IMG/VR virus record: IMGVR_UViG_3300034093_000979
Span: 1 to 32,376 of that record
Direction: 5' to 3' (one strand)
DNA: 32,376 nucleotides
Origin: a virus
A model generated the notes under the pieces. It saw only the letters and a list, made by a program, of their open reading frames with translations, did not search any database and had not been told where the DNA came from. The position numbers and the translations under genes were made by a program. Shown in pieces: positions 13,925 to 32,376 of this stretch (within the stretch, counting starts at the first letter, position 1; the number at the start of each line of letters is the position of its first letter).

Positions 13925-13925
13925 G

Positions 13926-14380: not shown

Positions 14381-14688
14381 TACTTCTTCTTTGCCTTCAA
14401 GCGCTTTGACATTGCGGCAGCCTTACTCTTGGCATCTGCCTTTGAGGATGCTCCCCATGCTTGAAGGGAAAGAAGGAGACGAGTCGGCTCACCGTTAGGC
14501 TTGCGCTCGGGACCAGGCATTCCGCCCATTCGAGCAAGGAATGATGCCCGACGAGGATTATCGCCAGACTTTACAGGAGACTTAAGGTCAGAGCCAGGGT
14601 TAGCTTTCTCGTAGGACTTACGTCCCTTTTCGTTAAGCCCACCCTTGGGATTCTTGCCCGCCTTCTTTTGCCATGCCTCACTTGCCAT
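14380..14688 (-). CDS. Small basic protein with WGASSKADAKSKAAAMSKR motif
   Basis: The start is set at the ATG at 14688 (102 aa). An in-frame GTG at 14706 is possible but lacks a well-spaced ribosome site. Motifs are SEAWQKKAGKNPKGGLNEKG, then PRRASFLARMGGMPGPE and a C-terminal LSLQAWGASSKADAKSK. Proteins of this type (DUF6321-like as I recall, uncertain) occur in many environmental phages near structural genes. The pattern of glycine turns with lysine and arginine suggests a basic, partly disordered protein. Overlap of its stop with the next start points to co-translation. Function unknown. Confidence 0.65.
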   Translation of the reverse strand: MASEAWQKKAGKNPKGGLNEKGRKSYEKANPGSDLKSPVKSGDNPRRASFLARMGGMPGPERKPNGEPTRLLLSLQAWGASSKADAKSKAAAMSKRLKAKKK

Positions 14689-14720
14689 TGTCTTTGCCCC
14701 GTCCACAGGTGCAATTTCCG

Positions 14721-14849
14721 TTACACATTCTTGCTCCTTGCTTTTCCTAATGAGTTCTTCTTACGAGAGGGAAGCGACTGGTCGCGCTTCATGTTTGGGT
14801 TTTTAACCACAACCTTTTTAGGGTCTACAGGCTTACGCTTTGTTGGCAT
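14721..14849 (-). CDS. Tiny basic protein (42 aa)
   Basis: A short gene whose ATG at 14849 overlaps the stop of the HNH-like gene (TAATG) and which ends with TAA at 14721. It encodes 42 residues beginning MPTKRKPVDPKKVVVKN and ending in LGKARSKNV, with about one third Lys or Arg. It lies in the same coupled series as its basic neighbours and fills what would otherwise be a 130-base gap. Being so short, it could be a chance ORF, but the coupling and composition match the adjacent genes. Confidence 0.55.
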   Translation of the reverse strand: MPTKRKPVDPKKVVVKNPNMKRDQSLPSRKKNSLGKARSKNV

Positions 14850-15175
14850 TACTTCTTCCCCGCTCGTCGTTTGTTTTCTTTAGCAACATTGCTGCTCTTA
14901 GATATTGCCCTAAGATTACCAGACGAGTTATTGCTTTTGTTGTTATCTTTGTGGTCAACTTCGGTCTTTCGTGGAAGCTTTCCATTCTTAGATTCGTACT
15001 TGGCACGAGCCTCATTCTGAGAGGTTGTTTTCCATCCGTCCTTGGTTTTAACTTTGGTAACCATGATGGAACGTCCGCCATTAGCATCCGAGCCCTTGTA
15101 GGGACCGAATGTCTTTTTTGTGCCGACAGCTACTTTCTTTGTAGCTTTCTGCTGAGCTTTTGATTTAAAAGGCAT
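14849..15175 (-). CDS. Small HNH-like nuclease-type protein
   Basis: A 108-aa protein whose ATG at 15175 overlaps the stop of the beta-helix gene (TAATG). The start [11 protein letters not shown] is common on small phage structural-region proteins. Residues 72-98 carry an HNH/His-Me-finger pattern: D74-H75 in EVDHKDNN, N83, N87-L88 in SGNLRA and N96 in SSNVAKEN. The usual upstream cysteine pairs are absent. It may act in DNA packaging or be a homing-type remnant, but activity is not shown. It heads the run of small basic genes and is itself strongly basic. Confidence 0.6.
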   Translation of the reverse strand: MPFKSKAQQKATKKVAVGTKKTFGPYKGSDANGGRSIMVTKVKTKDGWKTTSQNEARAKYESKNGKLPRKTEVDHKDNNKSNNSSGNLRAISKSSNVAKENKRRAGKK

Positions 15176-18189: not shown

Positions 18190-18564
18190 TTACGCCGTGA
18201 ACTTAATCCACACGTCGCCAACAGCGGGGCTGGCAGGACCAGTAGCGCCCGACTTAACAGTTACCTTGGGGTAAGACACGTGGGTGTCCGTGGAGCCCGT
18301 GTAGCGAGTAAACCCGCCCTGAAGAGAGAGCGTCCCCGAAGTCTCCGAGAGGGGAGTTGTCGTGCTTCCAGTAACAGCGGTAATGAGCGCGGCTGGGTTT
18401 GCGAAGGGAAGGGTTTCGTATACCGTCCCAGCAGCAACGCCAATTTTAAACTTACCCGCATCGGCTCCATCGGTTGTAATTCCGACTTCTCCAGGGGCAA
18501 GTACCACGCCTACCCAAGCGGCAGCGGTTCCACGGCGAAGTTGGATTTTAGTAATACGAGGCAT
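18190..18564 (-). CDS. Virion protein with Mtd-type N-terminal domain
   Basis: A 124-aa protein with AAGGAG six bases before the ATG. The first 55 residues match the N-terminal domain of major tropism determinant and similar fibres: TKIQLRRGTAAAW, then LAPGEVGITTDG, KFKIGVAAGTVYETLPFA. This domain forms trimers on fibre proteins. The remainder (60-124) is beta-rich and ends with GPASPAVGDVWIKFTA, a common fibre C-terminal pattern. No variable C-type lectin domain is present, so it is not itself a diversity-generating-retroelement target. It may be a short trimeric appendage of head or neck, given its neighbours. Confidence 0.7.
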   Translation of the reverse strand: MPRITKIQLRRGTAAAWVGVVLAPGEVGITTDGADAGKFKIGVAAGTVYETLPFANPAALITAVTGSTTTPLSETSGTLSLQGGFTRYTGSTDTHVSYPKVTVKSGATGPASPAVGDVWIKFTA

Positions 18565-18574
18565 TTATTTCTCC

Positions 18575-19900
18575 TTAAAGAATTGCAGTGTAGCTCTTAC
18601 GCGTAAAGAAGTCGCCACCAATGATTTCGATTTCTTCAGCAGTAATGGGGTCGACCCGCTCAACTTGCCACCAGCAACGGTTGGGAAGCCTAAGGGTTTC
18701 GTCGCGGGTCAACGCCAAGGTAGCGGTGTACGTCCACTCTCCGTCACGTGTCACCATGATTTCCAAGGCGCTAAGTGCAATGACGGTAGTGATTGTGTCG
18801 ACAAAAGTAAATGTAGTTCCTGATACCGCAGTGATTGTCTGTGCTTTTTCAGTAATCTTTTCAGCACCTGCAATGTACAGAACAGGCGTATCAGCGTCGT
18901 AAATCCACACTTTTTGCCCAACAGTAAAGCCGTGAGCACCGTCTGTTGTTACAACGGTTGTGCCGCTTCCTGCCGTGCGTGCAATCGCCGTGACAGTCCT
19001 TGTTGGTGCGGTGGACGTGACCGACAGGTCAAATTGCCTAACAACCTGGGCGCTGCCGCGTTGGGTAAGCAACTGGGCAATAAACTCGTAACCAGTGTAC
19101 GACCCAACAAAGGTCGTCGTGGCGCTGAAAGCAATGTCTTGGTGAGCGGTAAGCGCACTTGTCTCCGTAGGCCACGCAACGTTTGCGTCGCCGTAAGTGG
19201 GGTTGGAAAGCTCCACACGCTGGGAAACCGACTTGTCGTCGACCTCCTGCGGCTTGTACACGGGAACGTAGCGGTTGGTGGTCTTCGAGATTCGGCGCAA
19301 TGAAAATACATCGATGCTAAATAGACCGATGCCCAGCTGAGTACATAGTTCGCGGTACTGTTCTTTACGTGTTTGAATCATGTCCATCAATTGACGGTAA
19401 CGCTGTGCGCGCGGAATCATGACCCCGTCAGGGGCGGAGATGTCGATGTCAAAAGATGCGTCTGTTGCAAGTGTGTACAGCGCTAGAGTCGTTGCGTACA
19501 GAGATACGGGATACTCTTCAAGTGCTGGAAGGTTTTCGAGAGTGATTGTTCGACCTAAAGAGTCAACACGTTTTGCGGTGTGTTCTAGGACCGCCGTACT
19601 AACAAAACCCGAAATCTCAGAGTCTTTAAAGTAGCGGTAATGCGTTCCGTTGACTAGAAGAACGGCCCCCGCGGCGGGAACCGCAGCCAAGACAAGAACC
19701 CCCGTAGCCTCTTCTACCGTGGAAGTTGTCGTAACGTCAGTTCCGTTTACACTAACTTGTACGCTAGCCCCGTTAAGCGGGTTATAGGAAAGCTGGAATC
19801 GGTTAGTTGTGCCATCTGGGTACAAGCGCTCAACAAATGACTTGGCGATGTCACCCAGCTCTAGGCGAACGCGGTCAATAAGTGATTGGGTTGTAGCCAA
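18575..19900 (-). CDS. Head-tail adaptor-like protein with Ig-like C-terminal half
   Basis: A 441-aa protein that starts with TTG at 19900, supported by GGAGG five bases upstream. The first 190 residues begin with an adaptor-like helix (SLIDRVRLELGDIAKSFVER), then a beta insertion (RFQLSYNPLNGASVQVSVNG), and then helices with YATTLALYTLATDASFDI and RYRQLMDMIQTRKEQYRELC. That layout resembles gp6/gp15-type connectors below the portal. Residues 230-441 are two or so beta-sandwich segments, including AGSGTTVVTTDGAHGFTVGQ and FTFVDTITT. A fusion of a connector with a surface domain is inferred. It lies just beyond the terminator candidate that follows the capsid operon. Confidence 0.55.
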   Translation of the reverse strand: MATTQSLIDRVRLELGDIAKSFVERLYPDGTTNRFQLSYNPLNGASVQVSVNGTDVTTTSTVEEATGVLVLAAVPAAGAVLLVNGTHYRYFKDSEISGFVSTAVLEHTAKRVDSLGRTITLENLPALEEYPVSLYATTLALYTLATDASFDIDISAPDGVMIPRAQRYRQLMDMIQTRKEQYRELCTQLGIGLFSIDVFSLRRISKTTNRYVPVYKPQEVDDKSVSQRVELSNPTYGDANVAWPTETSALTAHQDIAFSATTTFVGSYTGYEFIAQLLTQRGSAQVVRQFDLSVTSTAPTRTVTAIARTAGSGTTVVTTDGAHGFTVGQKVWIYDADTPVLYIAGAEKITEKAQTITAVSGTTFTFVDTITTVIALSALEIMVTRDGEWTYTATLALTRDETLRLPNRCWWQVERVDPITAEEIEIIGGDFFTRKSYTAIL

Positions 19901-20020
19901 TGGGACCTCCGAAGTCTCACTCTAGTTTCTCGCAGAATACTGCAAAAATCAGCGCAAATAGGAAAACTCCCCCTGCTGGGAGGAGGGCGGGGACCAGCAG
20001 GGGGAGAACTTAACTAGGGT
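19901..20020 (-). other. Intergenic region between post-capsid gene and adaptor gene
   Basis: This 120-base stretch holds the strong terminator-like hairpin listed separately and the GGAGG ribosome site of the adaptor gene. The bases between, including a short A-rich run (19943-19947), show no good -10/-35 pair that I can point to. A promoter for the downstream neck and tail genes could lie here if the hairpin stops most transcripts. Confidence 0.4.
19967..20006 (-). terminator. Strong hairpin with TTTT on the minus strand: terminator candidate
   Basis: Arms CTCCCCCTGCTGG (19967-19979) and CCAGCAGGGGGAG (19994-20006) pair perfectly over 13 bp with a 14-base loop. In the minus-strand transcript the stem is followed directly by TTTTCC, a short uridine run. 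It sits 14 bases after the stop of the small post-capsid gene. It most likely ends or dampens transcription of the head operon before the adaptor gene. Confidence 0.7.
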
Positions 20021-21640: not shown

Positions 21641-22414
21641 CTACCCGAAGAGTCCCTGTCCACGATTATTGCTTGCTCCACCGAGCAGTTTGCTGCGGTT
21701 CTTAGCGTAATCCGCCAGTGACATCTCTGCGATGTTTTCTGGCGAGTACGAGCGTGAGTCCGAGTCGTTGTCGAGGGGTCCCGATGCAGGAACCGTGATA
21801 CGGCTACCTTGCATCTCTTTCCTACTTGCCTGCGCAGCTTGCGCAACCGAGTCGAAAATGTTTGCCGACTTGGTCTTGAGAGCGTTAATGCTCTGTTCAA
21901 CCTCATCAACGTTGTTTCCCTGAACCATGTCAATCAGGTCAGGAATAATGTTGTCGCGCTCCTGCTCAACTCGCTGAGCGCGGTACTGCTGAAGTTCCTG
22001 GAACTCACGTTCACGGTCGAGAAGGGCAAATGCCTTTTCACGCTCGTTACGCTCTTCTTCCAGCTGAAGCTGCCATTCTGCTTCCTTCTTTGAGAGAAGG
22101 TCACGAAGCTCAAGAGTTTCTTCCTCTTCACGCTTCTTCTGCGCGGCTGCTTCTGCATCCCGCTGGCGGCGCTGCTCTTTGCGAGCATCCTCCTGGGCGA
22201 TGCGTTCCTGCTCTGCCGACTTCAAAGCTGCCAGTTCTTCGCGCATCTTTTCCATCTGAGGGTAGAGCTTGTTCTTTTCCTGTTCGCGAGCCTTTGCAAG
22301 TTTGTCTGCAAGTTCATCTCCCTGAACAGATACTGCTGCTACTGTCGAGATTGCCGCGTCTTCAACGTCGGTCGCGGGACTCGTAACCGCTTCTGTGATT
22401 TCGTTGTCCGTCAT
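21641..22414 (-). CDS. Capsid scaffolding protein
   Basis: The start at the ATG at 22414 gives 257 aa; AGGAAAGAG lies upstream, and the in-frame extension to 22474 is probably not used. Residues 32-155 are an almost continuous charged coiled coil (REQEKNKLYPQMEKMREEL, ERIAQEDARKEQRRQRDAE, RDLLSKKEAEWQLQLEEERN). The rest is polar, with a C-terminal DYAKNRSKLLGG segment that could bind the capsid shell. Position between portal and capsid, coiled coil and polarity are the hallmarks of a scaffold that shapes the procapsid and leaves before packaging. No protease domain is visible. Confidence 0.85.
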   Translation of the reverse strand: MTDNEITEAVTSPATDVEDAAISTVAAVSVQGDELADKLAKAREQEKNKLYPQMEKMREELAALKSAEQERIAQEDARKEQRRQRDAEAAAQKKREEEETLELRDLLSKKEAEWQLQLEEERNEREKAFALLDREREFQELQQYRAQRVEQERDNIIPDLIDMVQGNNVDEVEQSINALKTKSANIFDSVAQAAQASRKEMQGSRITVPASGPLDNDSDSRSYSPENIAEMSLADYAKNRSKLLGGASNNRGQGLFG

Positions 22415-22538
22415 GGATTTACTCTTTCCTGTGATAAGGGTCTTTTTCCGAATGTTCCCAGGGGAACGTGCCACGTGACCTTGTTACTTAATACCAGTGA
22501 ACCTGATATTAAAGTCCTTGTCATGCTAAACGTAATGT
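22415..22538 (-). other. Inter-gene region upstream of the scaffold gene with three inverted repeats
   Basis: Between portal and scaffold genes are 124 bases with GTTCCC-AG-GGGAAC (22454-22467), a stem AATATCAG-GTTCA-CTGGTATT in minus-strand RNA (22490-22510; 8 bp, one G-U pair), and CTAAAC-GTAAT-GTTTAG (22526-22542), which covers the portal stop codon. No convincing promoter pair is seen. The closely spaced stems suggest a control point that separates portal from scaffold and capsid expression. Confidence 0.5.
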
Positions 22539-24281
22539 TTAGTTATCCTTCTCAACGGTGCGTCGTTGCGGAATTCTAGTTCCATACGCCTCGGTGATAA
22601 GCTTCTCGCGCAATGCTTGCTCGTTCTGGTCGTCAAGCAGCGTCGTGTTGGTAAGTGGGTCACTGACTGATTCCTCAGTTTGCGGACCAACCACTCCGTC
22701 TCCGACCATGTCTCCATCGCCAAGCATTGTTGGTTCAAGGGGCATTGCCTGTCCGTCGGGACCTGGCATCATTCCCGTGATGTCCATAATCTGCTTTGTG
22801 ACCTGGGTCTGAATCATCTTGAGAGCACCATCGCTGGTAGCGTCGTCGATGAGTTCGGAGCGAATCTCTTGCAGCTTCTCTTCGGGGAACTCCTCGCCAA
22901 GTGCGCGCAGTGCGCCTTCCTTGGACTCAAGTCCCATCTGCATCTTCATCTGAATCTCGTTGAGGAGAACCAGCTTGTCGAGTGGCAGTGGCTGCGGGAA
23001 GTAGACCGATGTCTGGTACGTGAGTGGGTCATTGGGGTCGAGCTGCGTAAGCTGACCGTCTTTGAGTGGACCGTTGATGTCGGGGTTGTAGGAGAACGTC
23101 TCAGGCTCTTTGAGCGCAAGGTTGAGCATGATGAGCTCGTTAATCTTTTCGATACCAGAACCGTACTGCGCAACTTTTTGCGTCCAGCGGTTCATCAAGG
23201 GCTGGTACTGAATTGCCAGTGCAACACCCGAAGTGTTAGAGATGGACTGTACCTGACCAAGAGCGGTCTCAGGAATGTTCATGAGTTCGAACATTGAGCG
23301 CTTGAGGCTCTCCAGGAACTGCATAGCGCCAGCAAGACCCGACGCTCCGCCCTCGAGGTTAAACACCTGAGAGTCTTTAGGAAGTCCGCCCCAGACCTTC
23401 TTGGCACCCTTCTCGAGGTTGGACGCTTTGGCTCCGACAATTACCGTAACAGGGGCTGCGTGGTAGTTGACGATGTCCGCGATGTCCGTCGAGATTTCGT
23501 TGAACGAACGATTCAGGGAGATAATGTCGTGTGCGTCGGAAAGACCCCACGGGCTACCTGAAACTGGAATGTTAGGGATGTGTACAACGGGGATAAGTCC
23601 CAGTGGGTTGGGGCGGCTGTCGATGAGCTCATCGTTGATGTACTCTTCGATGATGTCATCCGTAAGGATTTCGGTGTAGGTAAATACCTGGCGAGTTCCT
23701 TCAAGGCTGGTTCCCCAGAAACGGTACTTCTGCTTGAAACGCAAAAGACGCGTACGGTCGTGGGGGTGAAACTCGGGGAAACAGAACGCTGGGTTCAGAG
23801 GAAGGATTCGGACACGACCTGGGTGATAACGCCCAATGCCGTCTTCATACGCTTCTTCGTACGCAACCTTGACAAACGTGTCGCCCGTGATTCCGCCAGT
23901 CTGCGCCATCTCCAGGAGAATGCGCTTCTTGTCGTTGTCTACTTCCCAGACGCGGTCAAGGAGGTCAGGAACGATTGCTTCCGTAACTTTGGGCGAACGG
24001 AAACGCACACCGCTACCAAAAGTAAATCGCGCAAGGTAGTCAAGCATAGCTCGGTAGTAATTGACCGAGATTTGCATCTCACCTTGTTCACGACGGTAGC
24101 CCCAGTGGTGACCGAGGTACATTGCCCAGTTAAGCGAGTAACGGTTAAGTCGTGGTCCGTGGACTTCGAATTCCTCATCAGCAAGTTCTACGAGCCCTAG
24201 GGGCGAGATGCTGATTGTGAGGTCCGAGGACGCCGCACGGTAGCTTGGGGGTGAGAAGTCGAAATACGATGCACCACTCAT
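22539..24281 (-). CDS. Portal protein
   Basis: A 580-aa protein downstream of the terminase, with AAAAGGAT before the ATG at 24281. It has the expected make-up: an N-terminal segment with NRYSLNWAMYLGHHWGYRRE and an early helical part (YYRAMLDYLARFTFGSGVRFRSP), then a wing region with DTFVKVAYEEAYEDGIGRY, and a stem region with LNRSFNEISTDIADIVNYHAAPV and SMFELMNIPETALGQ. This last motif is typical of portals in tailed phages. The C-terminal part is acidic and proline-rich (GMMPGPDGQAMPLEP, ESVSDPLTN). It would form the dodecameric DNA entry ring. No fused head-maturation domain was seen. Confidence 0.92.
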   Translation of the reverse strand: MSGASYFDFSPPSYRAASSDLTISISPLGLVELADEEFEVHGPRLNRYSLNWAMYLGHHWGYRREQGEMQISVNYYRAMLDYLARFTFGSGVRFRSPKVTEAIVPDLLDRVWEVDNDKKRILLEMAQTGGITGDTFVKVAYEEAYEDGIGRYHPGRVRILPLNPAFCFPEFHPHDRTRLLRFKQKYRFWGTSLEGTRQVFTYTEILTDDIIEEYINDELIDSRPNPLGLIPVVHIPNIPVSGSPWGLSDAHDIISLNRSFNEISTDIADIVNYHAAPVTVIVGAKASNLEKGAKKVWGGLPKDSQVFNLEGGASGLAGAMQFLESLKRSMFELMNIPETALGQVQSISNTSGVALAIQYQPLMNRWTQKVAQYGSGIEKINELIMLNLALKEPETFSYNPDINGPLKDGQLTQLDPNDPLTYQTSVYFPQPLPLDKLVLLNEIQMKMQMGLESKEGALRALGEEFPEEKLQEIRSELIDDATSDGALKMIQTQVTKQIMDITGMMPGPDGQAMPLEPTMLGDGDMVGDGVVGPQTEESVSDPLTNTTLLDDQNEQALREKLITEAYGTRIPQRRTVEKDN

Positions 24282-24284
24282 CGA

Positions 24285-24614
24285 CTAATCCTTTTTGTCT
24301 TGTTCATGTTTTCCGCCCTTTTCCATAGCTTTGGTCTTTTCAGACTTAGCCATGTGTTTGTGTTGTTCGTGTGCGTGCCTGTTCTTCATCAGTTTTGCAC
24401 GACGAGTTTCCTTGTTGTGTTCCGCAAACTGCCCACCGTGGTTGACATACTGGTCATGCACCCAGTGAGAAGCCGCTGGGTTTGGGTAGGTTTTGTACTT
24501 CATTCTTGCTTGGAGAACAATGAGCTTCCAAAGGCGAGGGTTCGTCGGAACGCGGTTCGAGTGACGAGTGTCTCCCGATGCGGCGTTTGCCGAGGCTCCT
24601 TGCACGAATCCCAT
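24285..24614 (-). CDS. Small basic His/Lys-rich protein between terminase and portal genes
   Basis: A 109-aa protein with AGGAG five bases before the ATG at 24614. Residues 20-65 look folded (RVPTNPRLWKLIVLQARMKY, HWVHDQYVNHGGQF). From about 65 the chain is a highly charged tail (KETRRAKLMKNRHAHEQHKH, KAMEKGGKHEQDKKD). Its place between terminase-linked genes and portal suggests a role in packaging or procapsid assembly, but no family is recognised. The region upstream carries a long inverted repeat (24631-24699). Confidence 0.6.
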   Translation of the reverse strand: MGFVQGASANAASGDTRHSNRVPTNPRLWKLIVLQARMKYKTYPNPAASHWVHDQYVNHGGQFAEHNKETRRAKLMKNRHAHEQHKHMAKSEKTKAMEKGGKHEQDKKD

Positions 24615-24630
24615 TATGTCTCCTGAAAGA

Positions 24631-24699
24631 CCTGGCGGGGGCCTACCCTGGCTACTACCTTAAGATACAGCCGTAAGTGGGCCAAAGCCCCCTGCCAGG
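24631..24699 (-). repeat. Long inverted repeat before the 109-aa gene
   Basis: CCTGGCGGGGGC (24631-24642) and GCCCCCTGCCAGG (24687-24699) pair over 12 bp with a single bulge around a 44-base loop. It fills most of the gap between two genes and ends just before the AGGAG of the 109-aa gene. No uridine run follows, so it is a weak terminator candidate; an attenuator or mRNA-end structure is possible. Confidence 0.6.
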
Positions 24700-24702
24700 A
24701 AA

Positions 24703-25098
24703 TTAGTCGTTTACGACAGTCGGGTTCATCCGCATGGTGCGAGCACCAGAGCGAACAACCACCTCGTGGGTCTGCTCGGCGTAGTTCGTGAACGAACCGT
24801 GAGCAAACTCACCGAGGAACGTCGGTGCTTCAATCCAGGCAGCCGAGCCAACGTGAGCGCGCTCTCCGAGCGTCTCAGCGGCAGGCTTCTGCCAGACGGG
24901 AGCGTTGCGGTTCGGACGGCCTGGAGCCGAGGCAAAGCCGCTTGCAATTCCCTTCTGGAAATCTGTGGGGACATCGGTGTCAGTCGCGAGACCTTCTTCA
25001 AAGCGAAGCGGTCCACGACGTTCTTCGTTTCCAGACATCTTAAGCTCGTAAGCCTGAGGTGCTCGTTCGGGGAAACCTGGTGCGGGGGCAATACCCAT
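24703..25098 (-). CDS. Protein of unknown function downstream of terminase
   Basis: The start is set at the ATG at 25098 (131 aa), because AAGGAG lies nine bases before it; the in-frame TTG further upstream would place that site inside the gene. The protein is polar, beginning GIAPAPGFPERAPQAYELK, with RRGPLRFEEGLATDTD, PVWQKPAAETLGERAHVG and ending in EVVVRSGARTMRMNPTVVND. The Pro/Gly-rich first half may be disordered. A virion or head role is likely from position only; no motif is recognised. A palindrome lies 20 bases upstream of its start. Confidence 0.55.
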   Translation of the reverse strand: MGIAPAPGFPERAPQAYELKMSGNEERRGPLRFEEGLATDTDVPTDFQKGIASGFASAPGRPNRNAPVWQKPAAETLGERAHVGSAAWIEAPTFLGEFAHGSFTNYAEQTHEVVVRSGARTMRMNPTVVND

Positions 25099-25119
25099 GT
25101 TTTCTAACTCCTTAGTCAA

Positions 25120-25137
25120 TAGAAATGCGCATTTCTA
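25120..25137. promoter_or_regulatory. Perfect 18-bp palindrome TAGAAATGCGCATTTCTA
   Basis: A perfect inverted repeat in the 88-base gap after the terminase gene, about 20 bases before the next start codon. A length of 18 bp without a spacer fits a dimeric regulator site or a packaging signal near terminase. No -10/-35 pair is clear around it. Confidence 0.5.
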
Positions 25138-25186
25138 CTTTCTAGTGTGCCCAACTAACGGGGGATTGTCAGCGTAAACGTAAATT

Positions 25187-26776
25187 CTAAAAGAATGGGT
25201 TGTTTGATGCCTCAATGGTAGGCATAACTAGGTCAACCGTCATGGAGCAGGCGAGAGACAACGAGTCAACAAAGTCGTCGTGGGCGTGCGCCTCGTCGGG
25301 CGCTTCTACAACGAACTGGTTGCCTTTGTACTTGATTTCTGCGTCAGTCATCTGCTGCATGAACCGCTTCCAAACACGAAGGCGACGGGTCTTTGCGTGA
25401 GCGGGGTAGCCAAGCATACGGCGCTGCATAAGCGCTTGAAGATGCTTGTACCGAGTAGATTGTTCCTTTTGGCTTGATGTAAGAGGAACTACCTCAGCGC
25501 GAGGCATGAGGACCTTAAGTCGTTGGGCTACTGCGTCACCAACGCCGTTTGCATCGACTCCGATAGCAAGTACGTCGTAGTTACTGAGGAAGTTAACAAT
25601 CTGGAAGTACTGCTCTTCCCAGTCTTCACCTTGAATTTCAAGCCAATTAAGAACGCGGTGGTCGTAATAGCCAAACTCGTCGGGGCGGTCCCAGTCAACC
25701 CACACCACAGTTATCACTGTAGAGTCAAGTTTACGGGCAGGGTCAATACCCACCACCACTGGAGTCTGGTGCCATTGTTTTACCAGTTCCTGCGACGTAT
25801 CTCCGAGCTCATCCATAAGACCTTGGGTAACGAACATACCGCGGTCGAGCAACCACTTGCAGCTGTACGACATCTGGAACTCGTCAGAGTCCTCGCCAAT
25901 GCGCAGCATTTCCTTACGGATGAACTTCTTGTAGTTTTCGTTGACCTTAGCAACGTCTTTCCAGTCCCACTGGAAGTGGTTCTGCCGTGCCCCGCGGGAA
26001 GTGGCGCGCCGCTTGTTTAACTGAATTGCTTTGTAGAAGTTGTTCTTAGAAGTAGTGGGGGTTCCAGTTTTAATCATGGTTCCTGCGTAGTACGCAAGCA
26101 TGGGCGAGATTGACTTGGAAACAACAAAGTCATCAGCTTCCTGGCACTCGTCGATAACGATGACGTGGAAGGACTTTGACTCAATCTTTGCGCGGGGGTT
26201 TGCCGTCATCATGGTAAGAAACGAACCAAGGCGAGTAAGTCGGATGGTTCGAGTAACCCCACCTACACGCTTTGCTTGGTCGTCAATTTCAGGGTCACCC
26301 AGTACTTCGGTGGCTCGCTCAGAAGTCAACCTAGATACCGCTCGACTAAACAGGGTTTCTGCCTGCGATTCGGTGGGGGCAAACATGCCCACCCATAAAC
26401 CGTCTTTGAATTTGCCCAGAAGCTCGGGGTACAGCTTTGCGAGAAGAGGAAGGAGAATCATGAGCGCAGCAAGCGTGTCGGCTACTGTCTCCGTTTTTCC
26501 TGACTGACGGGATGCGAGTGCAGTAATTTCTTCGCCATCGTTGATGATTACGGACTCGATGATTCGTCGGCTTAGCGGAAGCTGGTAAGAGTGCAAGCTG
26601 TGACCCACCAGCATGGTCATAAACTGCTGAATCTTGTCTATTAGACGGTTGACAAATTCAGGAGATAGTTGGTCATCTTCTGGTTCCTCAAACTCATCGG
26701 CATCCTCGTCGTCAAAGTTTTCGAAGAACTCAGGAGTAATCTCCTCAAATCTGTCATCGTCATACTCAGAAGTCAT
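25187..26776 (-). CDS. terL: Terminase large subunit
   Basis: A 529-aa DNA-packaging ATPase and nuclease. The Walker A-type motif SRQSGKT is at 89-95, the Walker B motif VIVIDE at 205-210, and the coupling motif TGTPTT at 237-242. The RNase H-like nuclease has acidic residues D345 (VVGIDPAR), D408 (IGVDANG), and D500/D501/D504 near the end (HAHDDFVDSL). All expected catalytic residues are present. The first 40 residues are unusually acidic (DDEDADEFEEPEDD) and may be a regulatory tail. The start overlaps the previous small gene by 11 bases. The protein fills the capsid through the portal at 22539-24281. No separate small terminase is recognised nearby. Confidence 0.96.
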   Translation of the reverse strand: MTSEYDDDRFEEITPEFFENFDDEDADEFEEPEDDQLSPEFVNRLIDKIQQFMTMLVGHSLHSYQLPLSRRIIESVIINDGEEITALASRQSGKTETVADTLAALMILLPLLAKLYPELLGKFKDGLWVGMFAPTESQAETLFSRAVSRLTSERATEVLGDPEIDDQAKRVGGVTRTIRLTRLGSFLTMMTANPRAKIESKSFHVIVIDECQEADDFVVSKSISPMLAYYAGTMIKTGTPTTSKNNFYKAIQLNKRRATSRGARQNHFQWDWKDVAKVNENYKKFIRKEMLRIGEDSDEFQMSYSCKWLLDRGMFVTQGLMDELGDTSQELVKQWHQTPVVVGIDPARKLDSTVITVVWVDWDRPDEFGYYDHRVLNWLEIQGEDWEEQYFQIVNFLSNYDVLAIGVDANGVGDAVAQRLKVLMPRAEVVPLTSSQKEQSTRYKHLQALMQRRMLGYPAHAKTRRLRVWKRFMQQMTDAEIKYKGNQFVVEAPDEAHAHDDFVDSLSLACSMTVDLVMPTIEASNNPFF

Positions 26777-26942
26777 TAGAACGTTTCTTCAATTCATTTA
26801 GGATTGCTGCGAGTGCCTCAGCGCCAACTAGCGCTTCGTCAAGAAGTGCTGAATCTTTAGACCTCATCCAACCAGTGGTTTCTTTCCCAATCACGAAAAG
26901 CGCGTTTTCCGCCCACGTCACCAGGTCGGGAGTCGAAATCAT
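26766..26942 (-). CDS. Small protein directly upstream of terminase (58 aa)
   Basis: The start is placed at the ATG at 26942 because GAGGG lies about six bases upstream, although the frame is open further to 27011. The protein (STPDLVTWAENALFVIGKET, DEALVGAEALAAILNELKKR) is helical. It overlaps both its neighbours: 86 bases with the upstream gene and 11 with terminase. A packaging partner is possible from position, but it lacks a clear DNA-binding motif, so it is not called as a small terminase. Confidence 0.5.
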   Translation of the reverse strand: MISTPDLVTWAENALFVIGKETTGWMRSKDSALLDEALVGAEALAAILNELKKRSNDF

Positions 26943-27255
26943 CGCTACCCTCTTCTCCAACTTCGATTGTTGGGGCTGGGGTCCAGCCTTTTTCTTCCAC
27001 GAAATCATCATAAGTTACATCCCGCCTTTCAATTGCCCGTGTTAGTGCTGCTTCTTCATCCTCCGCCTGCCCAGTCCAACGACCAAAAGCAAGCGCCTTA
27101 TGAAAGGGTAGTCTAAAGATAATGGGTTCCGCAGTGCGAAATGGTTCCTCAATTTCTTGAGTCCAACCACGCACCGCGAGCTTAGTGCCCCAGACTACAG
27201 GGAAATCTAGTAATTGTACGTATCTTTGTGTTCCGATGTTGTGTGCCTTAGGCAT
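26857..27255 (-). CDS. Small acidic protein of unknown function (132 aa)
   Basis: The start is the ATG at 27255, with AGGAG four bases upstream; an in-frame longer version would run into the upstream gene. The chain starts PKAHNIGTQRYVQLLDFPVVWG, then IIFRLPFHKALAFGRW, and has an acidic second half (EEKGWTPAPTIEVGEEGSDD). It carries no motif that I recognise. It overlaps the downstream small gene by 86 bases. The mix of beta-like segment and acidic tail suggests a soluble accessory protein near the packaging genes. Confidence 0.6.
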   Translation of the reverse strand: MPKAHNIGTQRYVQLLDFPVVWGTKLAVRGWTQEIEEPFRTAEPIIFRLPFHKALAFGRWTGQAEDEEAALTRAIERRDVTYDDFVEEKGWTPAPTIEVGEEGSDDFDSRPGDVGGKRAFRDWERNHWLDEV

Positions 27256-27262
27256 TGTGCTC

Positions 27263-28036
27263 CTATGTAACTCCGCCTGAGTATCTCTTCTGGCGGTAAC
27301 TTGGTCGTACGCTAACCTGGGTGGCGCGCGAAACTCGGTAAAGTTGTTCACGGATTAGTGGGTCAACCTGAGATACATCTGCGTATCCACGAGGTTTGCT
27401 TACAAACAGTCCGTCTGTCTTCTGTCGTCCGTTAGGAAATCCCCTGTTTAGCCAAGGAGAGCCCTTAGAGTACGAAGCGGAAAACGCTTGCCACTCTTGG
27501 GCTGAAACTTCATAGTAATTGTAAAACGTTCCGTCACGGAATACAACCGTCATTGTTTGACGTGAAGGGTCGTATCCCGCCGCAACGGTGCGCGGGCGAG
27601 CATAGTTTGTCGACGATGTAGGGACATCGGTAATGAGCACCGCATCAATCTCCCCAATACCTGCGGGAAGAATACCGAACTCGTCGCCTGCCTCGGAAGG
27701 GCCGCGGTTGATTAGTGCGTCGCGCTCCTGCGGGTCGTAGAACGTGCCTGCAGCCCCTGTGACGGCGTAGCGCCCGTTGGGTCCTTCGGCGGTAAGGCCG
27801 AGTGCCGAGAGGGCCGCCTCGTCGTCCCCGTAGCCCGCAGCAAGTCGCTTGTACTTTGCGTAACCTTGGTTAGACCCAAGCAACCGCTTTACTGCGGCAG
27901 CCGAGCCCTGCCCGTTTGGTGCTACGAGACCAGTAAGGTCCGCTCCCAAAGTTTGACGAACAGGGAAAGCCTGCCCAGAAGTGTTTAACTCCTGAGCAGG
28001 ACCCTGACTCGCTGGGAGCGGACCTACTCTAGCCAT
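27263..28036 (-). CDS. Protein with KTSC-like domain
   Basis: A 257-aa protein. Residues 152-200 match the KTSC-type pattern: AAGYDPSRQTMTVVFRDGT, FYNYYEVSAQEWQAFSAS, then YSKGSPWLN. KTSC domains are small, of unclear biochemical role and common in phage and bacterial proteins. The N-terminal 130 residues are Gly/Ala/Pro-rich and probably flexible, with TLGADLTGLVAPNGQGS. The C-terminus is basic (SVRPSYRQKRYSGG). The ribosome site is weak, with the start 13 bases after the previous stop, so re-initiation is likely. A virion role is a guess. Confidence 0.6.
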   Translation of the reverse strand: MARVGPLPASQGPAQELNTSGQAFPVRQTLGADLTGLVAPNGQGSAAAVKRLLGSNQGYAKYKRLAAGYGDDEAALSALGLTAEGPNGRYAVTGAAGTFYDPQERDALINRGPSEAGDEFGILPAGIGEIDAVLITDVPTSSTNYARPRTVAAGYDPSRQTMTVVFRDGTFYNYYEVSAQEWQAFSASYSKGSPWLNRGFPNGRQKTDGLFVSKPRGYADVSQVDPLIREQLYRVSRATQVSVRPSYRQKRYSGGVT

Positions 28037-28049
28037 TAGCTATCTTGGA

Positions 28050-28730
28050 CTAAGCGGCCCAAGGCGTGATGGTGATGGCTGCGCCGACGACCGTCGAGTT
28101 AGCACCAGCAGCAACCGACTGCGACTTGATGGTTGCAGCAGCACCCTTGAGGACAGTACCAGGAGTGATTGCACCCGTGTCAGCAACGGTCCAGCCAGTA
28201 CCCGCGATAACGAGGGTCGAGCCGCTTCCGCCCGTGACAGACCAAGTACCAACAAGTGCTGCGGGAATACCCGTACCAGCTGTGATGGTGACCTTGTTTC
28301 CAACTGCCCAAGTACCAGTTCCGCCAGCAATGGTGACCGTTGCAGCAGTCGTCGTTGTGACGTTAATCTGGGTGGGCTGGGTTGCCGTGTTGGTTGCACC
28401 AGCAGCAGTCGTAACGGTAAATCCGTCATCCACAAGGATGCGGCTTGCCAGTGCTGTGGCGACACCAAGAACGCTAGGAACGACAACATAGCCAGCTCCC
28501 TCGGGACCTGCTGTGCCTTCCAAGATACCGTCGTTGTCTGCGTCGATTACCAGCGGGTAGCCGTTCCAGTTTTGGTACGCGATTTCGTGATTGTCGAGCG
28601 CGGGGTTAAGTACTGTCCCGCCGTTCTCGAGGCGCTCGTCGTTCGGCTGGAGAGGGAAGTTTCCCCATACAAAGTCGACGGCGACGTTACCTGATGAATC
28701 AACCAGGTTTCCGTTTTCGTTATTTGCCAT
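28050..28730 (-). CDS. Beta-rich Gly/Thr/Ala protein, possible capsid decoration or structural protein
   Basis: A 226-aa protein with AAGGAAAATC before the ATG. The first 80 residues look folded and acidic: NGNLVDSSGNVAVDFVWGNF, and VIDADNDGILEGT with D63, D65 and D67 in a DxDxDG loop like calcium-binding sites. Residues 90-226 are a repeated beta pattern rich in Gly, Thr, Ala and Val (TVTIAGGTGTWAVGNKVTI, VTGGSGSTLVIAGTGW). It resembles small Ig-like or decoration domains in virions. The upstream gap has a palindrome and a hairpin, so it may be expressed from its own signals. Confidence 0.6.
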   Translation of the reverse strand: MANNENGNLVDSSGNVAVDFVWGNFPLQPNDERLENGGTVLNPALDNHEIAYQNWNGYPLVIDADNDGILEGTAGPEGAGYVVVPSVLGVATALASRILVDDGFTVTTAAGATNTATQPTQINVTTTTAATVTIAGGTGTWAVGNKVTITAGTGIPAALVGTWSVTGGSGSTLVIAGTGWTVADTGAITPGTVLKGAAATIKSQSVAAGANSTVVGAAITITPWAA

Positions 28731-28739
28731 GATTTTCCT

Positions 28740-28773
28740 TACATTCGAATGTAGTTGCCTACGGGGTAGGCAA
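28740..28773. promoter_or_regulatory. Palindrome and hairpin before the 226-aa gene
   Basis: TACATTCGAATGTA (28740-28753) is a perfect 14-bp palindrome, and next to it TTGCCTAC-GGG-GTAGGCAA (28755-28773) is an 8-bp hairpin. Both lie in the 84-base gap before the structural-like gene. Neither has a following uridine run on the minus strand. They may form a binding site plus a terminator or attenuator. Confidence 0.5.
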
Positions 28774-28814
28774 TTTCAGGTTATCAACCAACCAAGGTTA
28801 ATACCTGCTAAACG

Positions 28815-29063
28815 CTACTCGTAGTCTTCGTCGTCTTCGCAGTCGTGGTCATCCATCATGTATTCGTACATAATGTCTTTGCACTCTTTACAGCGGAAGA
28901 AACGGACGTCGTCAAGTGCTTCGTGCAGTGAATCTCCGTGGTATTCGGGTTCTTCTGCTTTGGGATTAGCCGCGTACAGTTCGGGCGGGAAGGGCCCATA
29001 TGCAGGGGCAGCCGTCGAGGGAACCCAATGTCCCTGGACGGCATGCCTCCTGATGATTGCCAT
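28815..29063 (-). CDS. Small zinc-finger-like protein (82 aa)
   Basis: Begins with AIIRRHAVQGHWVPSTAAP, and the second half carries a CxxC pair C58/C61 (FRCKECKDIM) with H73 and C75 later (DDHDCED), a likely four-ligand zinc site. It ends in an acidic run. The gene starts just after the tiny cysteine ORF and belongs to a run of three consecutive small cysteine-rich ORFs. The function is unknown; nucleic-acid or protein binding is possible. Confidence 0.65.
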   Translation of the reverse strand: MAIIRRHAVQGHWVPSTAAPAYGPFPPELYAANPKAEEPEYHGDSLHEALDDVRFFRCKECKDIMYEYMMDDHDCEDDEDYE

Positions 29064-29066
29064 CAG

Positions 29067-29150
29067 TTACTGGCAGCTCTCGCACTGCAATGCTTCCATC
29101 GGGTCGATGGGGCAGGCGTAGCCATCTACTGAATCACTCGTTGGGTTCAC
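29067..29150 (-). CDS. Tiny cysteine-rich ORF (27 aa)
   Basis: A GTG-initiated frame at 29150 with GAGG nine bases upstream, overlapping the end of the previous gene. It encodes 27 residues including YACPIDPMEALQCESCQ, with a single Cys plus a CxxC, then stops with TAA three bases before the next ATG. Cysteine spacing and coupling suggest a real micro-protein, but it is very short and uncertain. Confidence 0.4.
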   Translation of the reverse strand: MNPTSDSVDGYACPIDPMEALQCESCQ

Positions 29151-29424
29151 TATCTGTTACCTCTTCCGCTGTAGGCTCGTTTTCGTTAGAGTTCGAGTCT
29201 ACAACCTCCGCCTCTGGAGTGGAGTTGATAACAGTAGTTGTTTTTGACTTTTTGGCTGCTTTTGCTGCGGCGAGCTCTGTAGCGAGGCTTTCGTCGGTAG
29301 AAAGCGAGACCAGAAGAGGACGAACCGAACGCGGTGCGTCATCGGAGCAGTAGTAGATGTTCTGGACGTTGCTGATGCTGTAAACAAAGGTTGCATCATT
29401 GGCGCAGTTTGCACATTTAGTCAT
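29134..29424 (-). CDS. Small protein with N-terminal zinc-ribbon half (96 aa)
   Basis: The ATG overlaps the previous stop (TAATG). The first 30 residues carry C4/C7 (KCANCAND) and C26 (YYCSDD), like a treble-clef or zinc-ribbon segment in which the third ligand follows a beta hairpin. The rest is an acidic, serine-rich helix and tail (STDESLATELAAAKAAKKSK, NSNENEPTAEEVTDSEPNE). Function unknown; possibly a host-interaction or transcription-related factor. Confidence 0.6.
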   Translation of the reverse strand: MTKCANCANDATFVYSISNVQNIYYCSDDAPRSVRPLLVSLSTDESLATELAAAKAAKKSKTTTVINSTPEAEVVDSNSNENEPTAEEVTDSEPNE

Positions 29425-30014
29425 TACTTCATTCCTTGCTTGCTTCGTCGGGTCATTGCTGCGCGCTGTGAACCAGTTGCGCTGTTGTAGCCCTTGTGTT
29501 CTTTAGTTCCCGCTTCAAAAGGGTTTTTGGGGTGAGGGTTACGTGCGCTGTACTTTGTGGGCATGCGCGTTGTCGCGGGCGCTGCTGGCGCAGCGGCGGG
29601 AGTTGTTCTGGGCTGACGAGTACGGGGCTCTTTGAACTGCGTCATTGTTTTACCCGTTCCAAAGTCAATCTCTGTCCGAGCTACGCCGCTCTTTTTTGCC
29701 GCCATGTCTGCTTCAGACTTTAGCTCGCCAAACGTCGTTGCATTTTTTCGGGTTTGCTTACCCTCAGCCTTTACGACTTTAACCCGAGCTTTTCCCTCGT
29801 ATTTAATTCCAACAAGCTTGGCGGCCTCTTGAATCTTAGTCTTGTCCAGAGATAGCTGGCCCATAAATTGTTCGTGTGACATCTGCCGCCGACGCGCAAA
29901 GGCGTCGGCAACCTTTCCCATCCCGCTCTGCGCAGCTTCTCCAGCAGGATTGCTTTTTGAGGTCTGGTTCGTGCGGAACTCTCCGCTTGAACCCATGATT
30001 CCTGTTTCAGCCAT
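29424..30014 (-). CDS. Basic polar protein of unknown function (196 aa)
   Basis: Starts at the ATG at 30014, overlapping the upstream stop by eight bases. It has a helical section (SGMGKVADAFARRRQMSHEQ, LSLDKTKIQEAAKLVGIKYE) and a basic part rich in Lys, Arg, Pro and Ala (REPRT-like, TTPAAAPAAPATTRMP), with the end GYNSATGSQRAAMTRRSKQG. No domain is recognised. The composition suggests a partly disordered basic protein that could be in the virion or bind DNA. Confidence 0.55.
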   Translation of the reverse strand: MAETGIMGSSGEFRTNQTSKSNPAGEAAQSGMGKVADAFARRRQMSHEQFMGQLSLDKTKIQEAAKLVGIKYEGKARVKVVKAEGKQTRKNATTFGELKSEADMAAKKSGVARTEIDFGTGKTMTQFKEPRTRQPRTTPAAAPAAPATTRMPTKYSARNPHPKNPFEAGTKEHKGYNSATGSQRAAMTRRSKQGMK

Positions 30015-30345
30015 TTTTGTTTATTTCCTTTTCGAGGTGTTCGAAGCGAGCGTCGCCTTCAGCAAGGCGCTTATCGATTGACGATATCTTTCGCTCAATT
30101 CGGTCCAGAGAGTCCTTCATGGACCCTCCGCCATTCTTCTTGAATTGTCCGTCTAGGTTATTCAGGCGTTCCATCACGCCAGGTTCCTTGTCGTGCCCAG
30201 GACGAGCAGCCTCGCCTGACCAGTCTCGCATAAATACGTCCCAACTTCTCGTGAATTTAATAAACTTGTTCCACAGAGGGGCAATTATTACAATGGTCGT
30301 ACCGATAGTCGACGCGACCATTGTAACTAACGCCAGGGTGTCCAT
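30007..30345 (-). CDS. Single-TM coiled-coil membrane protein near lysis genes
   Basis: A 112-aa protein with one hydrophobic segment (ALVTMVASTIGTTIVIIAPL, about 4-25) followed by a cytoplasm-like charged region and a coiled coil (KDSLDRIERKISSIDKRLAE). This pattern resembles membrane proteins of actinophage lysis regions (DUF2746-like, from memory). It may modulate holin action or be a second holin. It lies directly after the two-TM protein. Confidence 0.6.
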   Translation of the reverse strand: MDTLALVTMVASTIGTTIVIIAPLWNKFIKFTRSWDVFMRDWSGEAARPGHDKEPGVMERLNNLDGQFKKNGGGSMKDSLDRIERKISSIDKRLAEGDARFEHLEKEINKNG

Positions 30346-30348
30346 ACG

Positions 30349-30633
30349 TTACTTCTGAGTGTCTTCTTCGAACTTCTTGACTGCGTCGTTTGCTGCGTCA
30401 GAAACGGTCTTCTTAGTAGCGCGTCCCGTAGTGGCAATTGCGTAACCAACCGCACCAACCACACCAAGCATGAGGGTTACCCACGCAATGAGGACACCAG
30501 TCATCGGGTCACCCGTGATTACGGCACCCGAACCTGCTGCACCACCAAGAATGAACAAGAAGATACCAAATCCGCGCCAGAGGATTTCTCCTACAACGCC
30601 GAGGAAGATGTCAAACTTTTCTTTGAAGGTCAT
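30349..30633 (-). CDS. Putative holin (two membrane segments)
   Basis: A 94-aa protein with two hydrophobic segments, at about 18-40 (LWRGFGIFLFILGGAAGS) and 44-69 (VLIAWVTLMLGVVGAVGYAI), then a charged C-terminal tail (TKKTVSDAANDAVKKFEED). Size, topology and position immediately after the endolysin are typical of a class II holin, which would release the lysin through the membrane. The start follows the lysin stop directly. Confidence 0.65.
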   Translation of the reverse strand: MTFKEKFDIFLGVVGEILWRGFGIFLFILGGAAGSGAVITGDPMTGVLIAWVTLMLGVVGAVGYAIATTGRATKKTVSDAANDAVKKFEEDTQK

Positions 30634-31878
30634 TTAGCCAACTGCTTTCCATGTTTTTGGGCCAACGATGCCATCTGCAACCAGCCCATTCTTTGTCTGA
30701 AATGCTACGACTGCTGCCTTAGTTTTTGGTCCAAAGTCACCGTCTGCGGTGATACCGAGCTTGTTCTGCAAGTATTTTACGTCAGCGCCTTTGGAGCCCT
30801 GCTTGACTGTAGCGCGGGCAGCTGGCGCGGCGGGAGCAGCTGTTGCTCCACCTTGCTGTGCGAGAAACGCTTCGTAGTCAAAGTTTCCTGCGCCGTTGAC
30901 GTGCTTACCGCCAATGCGGGCAGAGAGGTGGAGGTGGGGACCATACCCGCGCTCAGAGCCCTTGCCCGAAGCACCAGAAAGTCCAAGTACCTGACCTTGA
31001 GTCACGGCTTGTCCAGGGGATACGTCAACGCGGCTGAGGTGCAGGTAGTCGAAGTTGTATCCGTCTGTGGTCGTGTCGAGGTAGACCATACGCCCGCCAG
31101 CACCAGCAATAGACGTGGTCGTTCCCACGACTACACCGTCAGCAACTGCAACCACGGGGGTTCCAATACCGACAACGTAGTCAGTTCCAGGGTTGACTGA
31201 CTTGCGTGCCTTGTGTGCGTTGAAGTCGTCCGAGATGCCCGCGTTTACGGGACGAACGAATCGGGGTTTGGGAGCGGGCTTGGGAGCCTCTGCGACTACC
31301 TCGGCTGCCTTGGCGATTACCGCCGCTGCCTTAGCGCCAGCTTCGTCGTGAGTAGGCTCGGGAGCCACTGGGTCAGTCTCTTTGGCTTCCACAGGTGCGG
31401 TAGCAATGGACTTTTCCCACTTGATGAGTGCTTCAAAAAACTTTACAGGCTCGATGTAACCTTTGCCTGTTGCGCTCCATGTGTGCGACGTACCTTTGTG
31501 GAGTTCCCAGTGAAGGTGCTTGCCAGTCGACATTCCCGTCGAGCCCATCTTGCCGAGAGCAGTTCCTGCCTCGACTTTCTGGCCCTTCTTAACCTTGACC
31601 GAACCGTCTGCCATGTGAGCGTACAGGGTGGTGTACCACTGGCCCTTAATCTTGTGCTTAAGAGTTACGGAGTTACCGAATCCTGCGGGGTTGTTTCCCA
31701 CCGCAATAACCTTGCCCGCATACGGAGCTTCAATCACACACGGCGATTTGCCCGACCAAATGTCGGTTCCGTTGTGATGCTTTTTTGTTTTTGTTACTGG
31801 GTGGATACGCCACCCCATGTACGAGGTAACTTTCCAGGCTTTACCAGGCCGACCATCAATTGCAAACTGTGCAGTCAT
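30634..31878 (-). CDS. Endolysin with two M23 domains and a peptidoglycan-binding domain
   Basis: A 414-aa protein with AGGAG five bases before the ATG. Domain 1 (about 15-150) is an M23 zinc peptidase: H35 and D39 in HHNGTD, H88 in YAHM, and H121/H123 in KHLHWE. A linker rich in Ala, Pro and Glu follows (160-205). Domain 2 (about 205-340) is a second M23-like module with HLH at 315-317 and H280, but the first ligand is N229 in NPGTD instead of His, so it is probably inactive or altered. Residues 355-412 form a PG_binding_1-type domain (GADVKYLQNKLG, DGDFGPKTKAAVVAFQ). It would cleave host cell-wall cross-bridges with help from the holin. Confidence 0.9.
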   Translation of the reverse strand: MTAQFAIDGRPGKAWKVTSYMGWRIHPVTKTKKHHNGTDIWSGKSPCVIEAPYAGKVIAVGNNPAGFGNSVTLKHKIKGQWYTTLYAHMADGSVKVKKGQKVEAGTALGKMGSTGMSTGKHLHWELHKGTSHTWSATGKGYIEPVKFFEALIKWEKSIATAPVEAKETDPVAPEPTHDEAGAKAAAVIAKAAEVVAEAPKPAPKPRFVRPVNAGISDDFNAHKARKSVNPGTDYVVGIGTPVVAVADGVVVGTTTSIAGAGGRMVYLDTTTDGYNFDYLHLSRVDVSPGQAVTQGQVLGLSGASGKGSERGYGPHLHLSARIGGKHVNGAGNFDYEAFLAQQGGATAAPAAPAARATVKQGSKGADVKYLQNKLGITADGDFGPKTKAAVVAFQTKNGLVADGIVGPKTWKAVG

Positions 31879-31935
31879 CGTGACTCCTAACGTCTTTTCT
31901 AGTGTAGGTTAAATACCTGTTTTTTTCAGGGGAAA
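31879..31935 (-). other. Short gap before endolysin
   Basis: A 57-base gap holding the AGGAG of the lysin gene and a short CCTG-A7-CAGG element (31912-31931 region). No promoter is evident. Confidence 0.4.
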
Positions 31936-32151
31936 CTAGAAGGTGACGCCCCTCCGACGGGAAACAATGTTGCTAGGGTTGCTGCTTGCGTTAACGGATT
32001 CGCCCTGCACACCTCGACCTCGACGTGCGTAATTAAAGATTGACGGAGCGTTGTTAGACCGCGGGGCCTGGTAGGCAACGGAATCAACAAATGATTTGGC
32101 GCGACGATTCTGCACGGGGATGAGGGGCTTGCGAGGGACCATGGCGACCAT
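31936..32151 (-). CDS. Small basic protein, first gene of the leftward operon (71 aa)
   Basis: A 71-aa frame from the ATG at 32151 to TAG, starting MVAMVPRKPLIPVQNRRAKS and rich in Arg, Asn and Ser. An ATG three codons in is an alternative start, and no strong ribosome site is seen. It is the first gene downstream of the TATAAT-containing region on this strand. A longer overlapping frame in another phase (31926-32216) looks less protein-like. No function is recognised. Confidence 0.45.
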   Translation of the reverse strand: MVAMVPRKPLIPVQNRRAKSFVDSVAYQAPRSNNAPSIFNYARRGRGVQGESVNASSNPSNIVSRRRGVTF

Positions 32152-32216
32152 ACTTCTATGGTGACAGAAAGATTGGGGATAAGCTTGGCAAACATTGCGC
32201 GTTGTGGGGTCCTCAC

Positions 32217-32332
32217 CTGACTATGTAGTAGAGTTACTATTTAGTAGGATTATAAACAAGTAGGGAAAACAGTAGGGATATTGTGCTGCGCACATAAAAA
32301 TGTGTGGTAGTGTAACAACCAAAGGAGAGCAA
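32217..32332. promoter_or_regulatory. Divergent control region with AGTAGG repeats and a minus-strand TATAAT
   Basis: This is the only divergent junction in the window. On the minus strand, TATAAT is a perfect -10 (32249-32254); the -35 is poor. The plus strand has four copies of AGTAGA/G at 32227, 32243, 32259 and 32271 (spaced 16, 16 and 12 bases), the last two extended to AGTAGGGA. A CACAT-AAAA-ATGTG inverted repeat lies at 32291-32304. The repeats flank the -10 and look like activator or repressor sites that set timing of the leftward late operon. Confidence 0.6.
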
Positions 32333-32376
32333 ATGGAAGAACAAATTACCCGCATGATGGAGCTTGCCGAAATGAA
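32333..32376 (+). CDS. Start of a rightward gene (partial)
   Basis: An ATG at 32333 preceded by AAAGGAG five bases upstream opens a plus-strand frame of 14 full codons to the window edge, encoding MEEQITRMMELAEM. The strong ribosome site makes it a convincing gene start. The product is unknown because only the first residues are in the window. It diverges from all other genes and probably begins the early or regulatory part of the genome. Confidence 0.6.
   Translation, partial: MEEQITRMMELAEM

Follow-up and report, generated by a model that had tools for sequence, protein, structure and literature searches.

Repeated AGTAGR units in the divergent spacer of a BRock-related phage contig: a possible operator-like array

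The phage contig presented here bears four closely set AGTAGA/G units between a leftward set of late genes and a putative rightward gene. We tentatively read these units as an operator-like array for a dimeric regulator, a reading that is favoured because the palindromes and half-sites are concentrated at a place where regulation would be expected. As a sequence feature the array is real but modest, and local duplication is a strong rival explanation.

Gene content and the divergent spacer

The window, that is, the whole stretch of DNA analysed, is an IMG/VR virus contig of 32376 bases from an incomplete genome. It is related to Streptomyces phage BRock, its terminase being 52-53% identical to the terminases of BRock and its kin. 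Recognised leftward products are a terminase, a portal, a major head protein, a tail sheath, a baseplate protein, an endolysin and a holin-like protein, a gene set that looks like a late operon. An HNH endonuclease (Pfam HNH_3) is located within the structural gene block at 14849-15175 (minus), and the protein encoded at 18190-18564 (minus) matches Mtd_N, the N-terminal domain of the phage major tropism determinant (E-value = 1.3e-8). Pfam scans of 23 window proteins recognised no regulator, activator or initiator gene, which counts against an operator.

Thirty-eight tiling minus-strand ORFs of at least 60 aa span 95% of the window, and 29 of 33 minus ORFs have a tblastn match in five relative records (all queries being from the minus strand). 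Only three plus-strand ORFs lie more than half outside minus ORFs; they are 62-90 aa long and established at 13923-14883, an area that also has small minus ORFs, among them 14380-14706, which corresponds to Pfam DUF6321. From the minus-ORF tiling and the matches in relatives we infer that 32152-32332 is the sole divergent spacer, and the original prediction of a single divergent region was accepted on this basis. The spacer has a GC content of 37%, compared with 48-55% in 2-kb steps of the window; its position and its low GC both argue for an operator. The features of this area are the following.

30634..31878, minus strand: endolysin with two M23 peptidase stretches and a peptidoglycan-binding domain
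31936..32151, minus strand: first leftward gene, 71 aa, conserved in relatives
32220..32235, plus strand: unit 1, ACTATGTAGTAGAGTT, a 10-base palindrome ACTA-TG-TAGT, then AG
32236..32251, plus strand: unit 2, ACTATTTAGTAGGATT, with the palindrome TACTA-TT-TAGTA at 32235-32246; 81% identical to unit 1
32249..32254, minus strand: TATAAT, a possible leftward -10 without a -35, reading ATTATA on the plus strand
32254..32265, plus strand: unit 3, AAACAAGTAGGG, with AGTAGG at 32259-32264
32266..32277, plus strand: unit 4, AAAACAGTAGGG, with AGTAGG at 32271-32276
32291..32304, no strand: CACAT-AAAA-ATGTG, an inverted repeat that precedes the rightward gene and is within chance expectation
32308..32313, plus strand: TAGTGT after TGG, a possible extended -10 for the rightward gene, picked by eye
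32333..32376, plus strand: start of the putative rightward gene (MEEQITRMMELAEM), with AAAGGAG before the start and 14 codons up to the record end

No PHROG or Pfam family was found for the 71-aa leftward protein. Directly before the ATG of its gene stands TGTCACCATAGA (32152-32170, minus), and a ribosome-binding site is not evident there. A counterpart, TGTCATCATAGA, precedes the 71-aa homologues in two relative records (G001 and G002), and another form, TGTCACAATAAA, precedes a different gene of G001.

The AGTAGR array

The original prediction had described four AGTAGA/G units with spacings of 16, 16 and 12 bases, and exactly these were found, AGTAGA at 32227-32232 and AGTAGG at 32243-32248, 32259-32264 and 32271-32276 (starts 32227, 32243, 32259 and 32271). 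The array consists of two different tandem pairs. Units 1 and 2 form a 16-base pair (81% identical) containing the palindromes ACTATGTAGT and ACTATTTAGT, and they are more aptly read as a tandem of two ACTA-N2-TAGT palindromes, a motif whose only two occurrences in the 32-kb window are these. Units 3 and 4 form a 12-base pair, AAACAAGTAGGG / AAAACAGTAGGG, neither of which is palindromic, a point against the operator. The same holds for helix phasing, since the spacings of 16, 16 and 12 bases do not bring all units to one face, while units 1 and 3, 32 bases apart, would share one. The CACAT/ATGTG repeat previously noted beside the array is present at 32291-32304; when the 116-base stretch 32217-32332 was shuffled 3000 times, 1325 of the products held some 5-bp inverted repeat with a loop of 3-8 bases. 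The best RNA fold of the spacer reached a z of only -1.41 against shuffles.

Within the spacer the array is rare. Shuffling of 32217-32332 produced at least four AGTAG (or CTACT) on one strand twice in 3000 trials. Of 2000 dinucleotide shuffles of the 181-base spacer, one placed some 5-mer four times within 60 bp, and a 4-2-4 palindrome repeated with the same arms within 40 bases appeared in none of 2000 spacer shuffles. The first and the last of these values argue for an operator. Over the whole window a word cluster this tight is not rare: two such 5-mer clusters were seen, and shuffling the window gave one in 4 of 20 cases, which counts against an operator. One other pair of 4-2-4 palindromes exists in the window (23623/23650), and a pair of this kind arose in a single one of 20 shuffled windows. 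The repeat had also been proposed as something to seek elsewhere; the four-unit array is unique in the 32 kb, while single AGTAGR words occur throughout and are mildly enriched (33 vs 24.8 expected; 5 of 100 shuffles reach 33).

These values bear directly on the strong rival, according to which two small tandem duplications, of 16 and 12 bases, arose in an AT-rich spacer and share AGTAG by chance, next to a chance TATAAT, with no functional unit. Such an origin is possible, if somewhat doubtful. It is supported by the clusters in shuffled windows, by the frequency of the 5-bp inverted repeat and of TATAAT itself (either strand, 411 of 3000 shuffles of 32217-32332), and by the output of Tandem Repeats Finder, which gives the 12-base pair only. 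On the other side, the cluster falls within the divergent spacer, for which shuffling produced it once in 2000, and the duplicated words are palindromic, which shuffling did not reproduce at all. Direct repeats within an AT-rich spacer may also recall the iterons of a replication origin, a very improbable reading here: neighbouring units alone reach 81-83% identity, only 5-6 bases are exactly shared among the units, the spacing is uneven, and an initiator was not among the proteins recognised in the window, although the record does not extend over the right side of the locus.

Under the operator reading, the stretch would be a regulatory spacer between the putative rightward gene and a leftward late operon encoding the 71-aa protein, the endolysin, holin-like proteins, packaging and structure. 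The array would comprise two tandem ACTA-N2-TAGT palindromes 16 bp apart plus two half-sites, and its binder would probably be a dimeric DNA-binding protein, of phage or host. Once bound, this protein may cover the leftward -10-like sequences and so time or balance two divergent transcripts from predicted starts in the spacer.

The leftward TATAAT and late-type promoters

A leftward TATAAT without a good -35 had been reported, and this was borne out, as the place at 17 bases reads CCCTAC. The candidate -35 hexamers at 16, 17 and 18 bp are CCTACT, CCCTAC and TCCCTA, and a sigma-70 scan listed no site at TATAAT 32254-32249. Compared with sigma-70-type promoters, the spacer shares the TATAAT and lacks the -35 (TTGACA-like, 16-18 bp) in the leftward direction. 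Canonical TTGACA/TATAAT-like pairs number 0 in the window and 7 in 12 pieces of four relatives. The overlap of the array with the TATAAT, as well as with the spacer's best late-type promoter match described below, argues for an operator.

From the same TATAAT the original prediction had derived an activator-dependent late promoter, the repeats being activator sites around a -10 that lacks a -35. Part of this stands: the leftward gene set has the look of a late operon, with the TATAAT correctly oriented for it and flanked by the repeats, and partly palindromic repeats suit a regulated divergent spacer. The missing -35 as a hallmark of late promoters is not supported, since three other late genes (starts 31878, 25119 and 22474) have promoter-like two-box sites, and because these recur in relatives, the missing -35 is not the late-promoter rule of this phage. 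Furthermore, the repeats lie on both sides of the TATAAT, the initially transcribed stretch included, where activator sites are unusual; no activator was recognised in the 23 proteins, and TATAAT is common by chance in the stretch. An activator-dependent late promoter is therefore unlikely.

The late-type sites differ from sigma-70-type promoters in that their -10 ends in ACT; they have the form of a TGACA-like -35, 17 bp and this -10, and are located upstream of the three gene starts named above. Two of them are given here.

31901..31929, minus strand: candidate CTGAAA-N17-TACACT preceding the endolysin gene, with a counterpart in the relative G030 whose spacer is changed
25144..25172, minus strand: candidate CTGACA-N17-CACACT preceding gene 24703-25119, with counterparts in the same position in the relatives G030 and G031

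For gene 24703-25119, G030 has the same CTGACA-N17-CACACT and G031 the form CTGACA-N17-CAAACT. Upstream of the gene starting at 22474, the window reads ATGACA-N17-TTCACT, G030 CAGACA-N17-TTTACT and G031 CAGACA-N17-TTAACT (the sites of the relatives being picked by eye). By the matrix described below, the late-type candidate at 22474-22540 (minus) scores 15.3 bits, and another at 19900-19970 (minus) scores 6.0 bits; both lie just upstream of gene starts.

Across the group, 83 post-terminase spacers were collected (the best-80 kept loci, the window, G030 and G031) and merged where identical into 69. A[AC]ACT is present in 65 of the 69 distinct spacers, whereas 200 mononucleotide shuffles averaged 19 and reached at most 29, and a ribosome-binding site is recognisable in 82 of the 83. 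A promoter matrix was built from 65 distinct post-terminase windows, of which the window, G030 and G031 supplied three; because A[AC]ACT served as the anchor, the matrix is bound to be strong at that motif. On the window's minus strand, three positions scored at least 10, namely 25148, which is a training site, and 22500 and 31905, which are outside the training set and just upstream of gene starts; the single plus-strand score of at least 10 is the mirror of 31905. The three best minus-strand scores are 12.0, 15.3 and 27.5 bits, while shuffled minus strands gave 0.18 scores of at least 10 on average and one of 40 reached 16.2. G002 and G014 likewise have positions that score at least 8; the endolysin and 22474-gene sites of G030 are absent from scores at this level and were found by regex and eye. 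A regular expression for the late type matched 4 of the 83 spacers, within the range of its shuffles (mean 1.96, maximum 5), and therefore says nothing family-wide; the A[AC]ACT count and the matrix carry the claim. On these sequence comparisons, the late genes of the phage appear to have ordinary two-box promoters.

Many post-terminase spacers (in the window 25120-25186) also have a short hairpin between the promoter-like element and the ribosome-binding site. In 61 of the 69 spacers the last 60 bases contain an exact stem of 5 bp or more, a count without a shuffle control. In a 12-sequence alignment of the hairpin, two of five pairs have changed on both sides, with little covariation energy (-0.08).

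The same matrix raises another explanation of the array, namely a degenerate late promoter from which leftward transcription would start, with the -35 AGCACA, 17 bp and the -10 CCTACT provided by unit 3 on the minus strand, the other units being decayed -10 copies and the TATAAT incidental. Specifically, the spacer's best matrix match is at 32263 (minus), 8th among window positions on both strands; unit 3 read on the minus strand places CTACT at the -10, and the score was reached in 22 of 1000 minus-strand shuffles of 32152-32376. This match is weak at 4.4 bits compared with the three best minus-strand sites, scores of at least 4 numbered 7 on the window's minus strand where 1.8 were expected per shuffled minus strand, and the units have only ACT in common with the -10, so that a degenerate late promoter seems quite improbable. 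Little credence can also be given to a combined form, in which an undescribed regulator uses the array as its operator to switch the divergent transcripts of a BRock-like phage and the motif is also a modified late -10, with the regulator acting directly on the -10.

Relatives, known systems and implications

Relatives were taken as the best 80 of 95 matches for the 71-aa protein, other lists being the best 80 of 110 (79 loci) and of at least 598. Among the best 80 of 95, one locus (L162, record G031) has the same divergent layout; its endolysin is 81% identical in the best segment and its terminase 86%. There a 71-aa-like gene diverges from a small gene, and the spacer bears a terminator-like hairpin and has no array; the lack of the array counts against the operator and is explained equally well by duplication. 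The closest relative among the matches listed is G030 (L161; endolysin 87%, terminase 93%), whose record ends inside the 71-aa gene, before the spacer. Concerning the other loci, 77 of 78 have a same-strand ORF whose end coincides with the match or lies no more than 135 bases upstream of it, and one is without upstream sequence; since these 77 lack this spacer, they say little about the array. The failure to find the array in relatives supports duplication, but for the same reason absence from most of those searched carries little weight.

Beside the divergent gene of L162, at about 1630-1710 (minus), a tRNA-Arg(TCT)-like remnant with a shortened D arm was seen by eye, although ARAGORN called no tRNA in this locus. 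In BRock, a tRNA-Arg(TCT) lies some 8 kb upstream of the terminase. The 53-aa counterpart of the rightward gene in L162 found no other relative in viral_contigs, and a degenerate search from the window's rightward codons gave 10 stretches with no convincing match. An Rfam PreQ1-like match at 31911-31958 was below threshold (16.9 bits vs a cut-off of 39, E-value = 0.83) and was rejected.

The palindrome pair was found in 0 of 18 relative records, which weighs against the operator, ACTA-N2-TAGT was absent from 14 scanned pieces of five relative records, and the exact pattern over units 2-3 gave 0 matches in viral_contigs. A tight four-unit pattern matched 15 stretches, which were short tandem repeats or of other makeup with no visible kinship to the window and were set aside. 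Of 48 relative records, 6 contained the three-unit pattern and 4 its reversed control; all eight places of the pattern lie inside long ORFs (498-1013 aa), so none is a spacer array. Three AGTAGR within 50 bp were found in 10 of 159 other loci, by sequence as collagen-like or Glu/Val coding repeats and in one case inside the L100 terminase match. Sixteen-base tandem AGTAGGATTTTCAGTA repeats at L266 8943-8996 are iteron-like, and kinship with the window was not seen.

The palindrome-pair pattern matched nine stretches in viral_contigs, none of them a relative. Seven of the nine (L281-L285, L287 and L288) come from unrelated viral contigs, several of them nearly identical to each other, and carry ACTAATTAGTAGT palindromes in tandem, with an 18-base offset, in a spacer; six of these seven have a 258-aa ORF called directly downstream. 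Three ACTAATTAGT palindromes surround the start of this ORF in the seven stretches. Two scanned copies of the 258-aa protein had no Pfam match above the cut-off. Like the window, these contigs have two tandem ACTA-N2-TAGTAG palindromes in a spacer, an analogy that may speak for an operator; they differ in their 18-base period (vs 16), in a third palindrome at the start codon and in their unrelated genes, and where an upstream ORF (68 aa) is called it is on the same strand, so that the spacer is not divergent.

Lambda-like divergent early/late switches are phage operator arrays with palindromic repeated sites in a divergent spacer. The window has palindromic repeated sites in a divergent spacer as well, but its palindromes are much shorter and come without a known repressor gene. 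BRock (Borockvirus) resembles the window in its terminase (52.0% identical over 93%) and in the gene order terminase, portal, major head protein and tail sheath. It differs in that every CDS annotated over 14 kb upstream of the terminase shares the strand of that gene, as two tRNAs do not, so that a divergent spacer like the one described here is not seen in that region. BRock is described as a myovirus of 52.3% GC, and the word "promoter" is absent from the accessible part of its paper (PMC7453282). For window 22001-32376 no similar DNA was found. In the parts seen of one open-licence literature collection, nothing was found on promoters of this group of uncultivated phages, and in the same collection nothing on late promoters of freshwater actinobacteria phages.

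If the AGTAGR units are indeed an operator array, they would mark a control point between a lysis and head operon and an opposing gene in an uncultivated phage group. The more solid result, obtained as a side product, is the promoter-like element conserved after the terminase across the phage group, through which the late promoters of the group become testable in a reporter.
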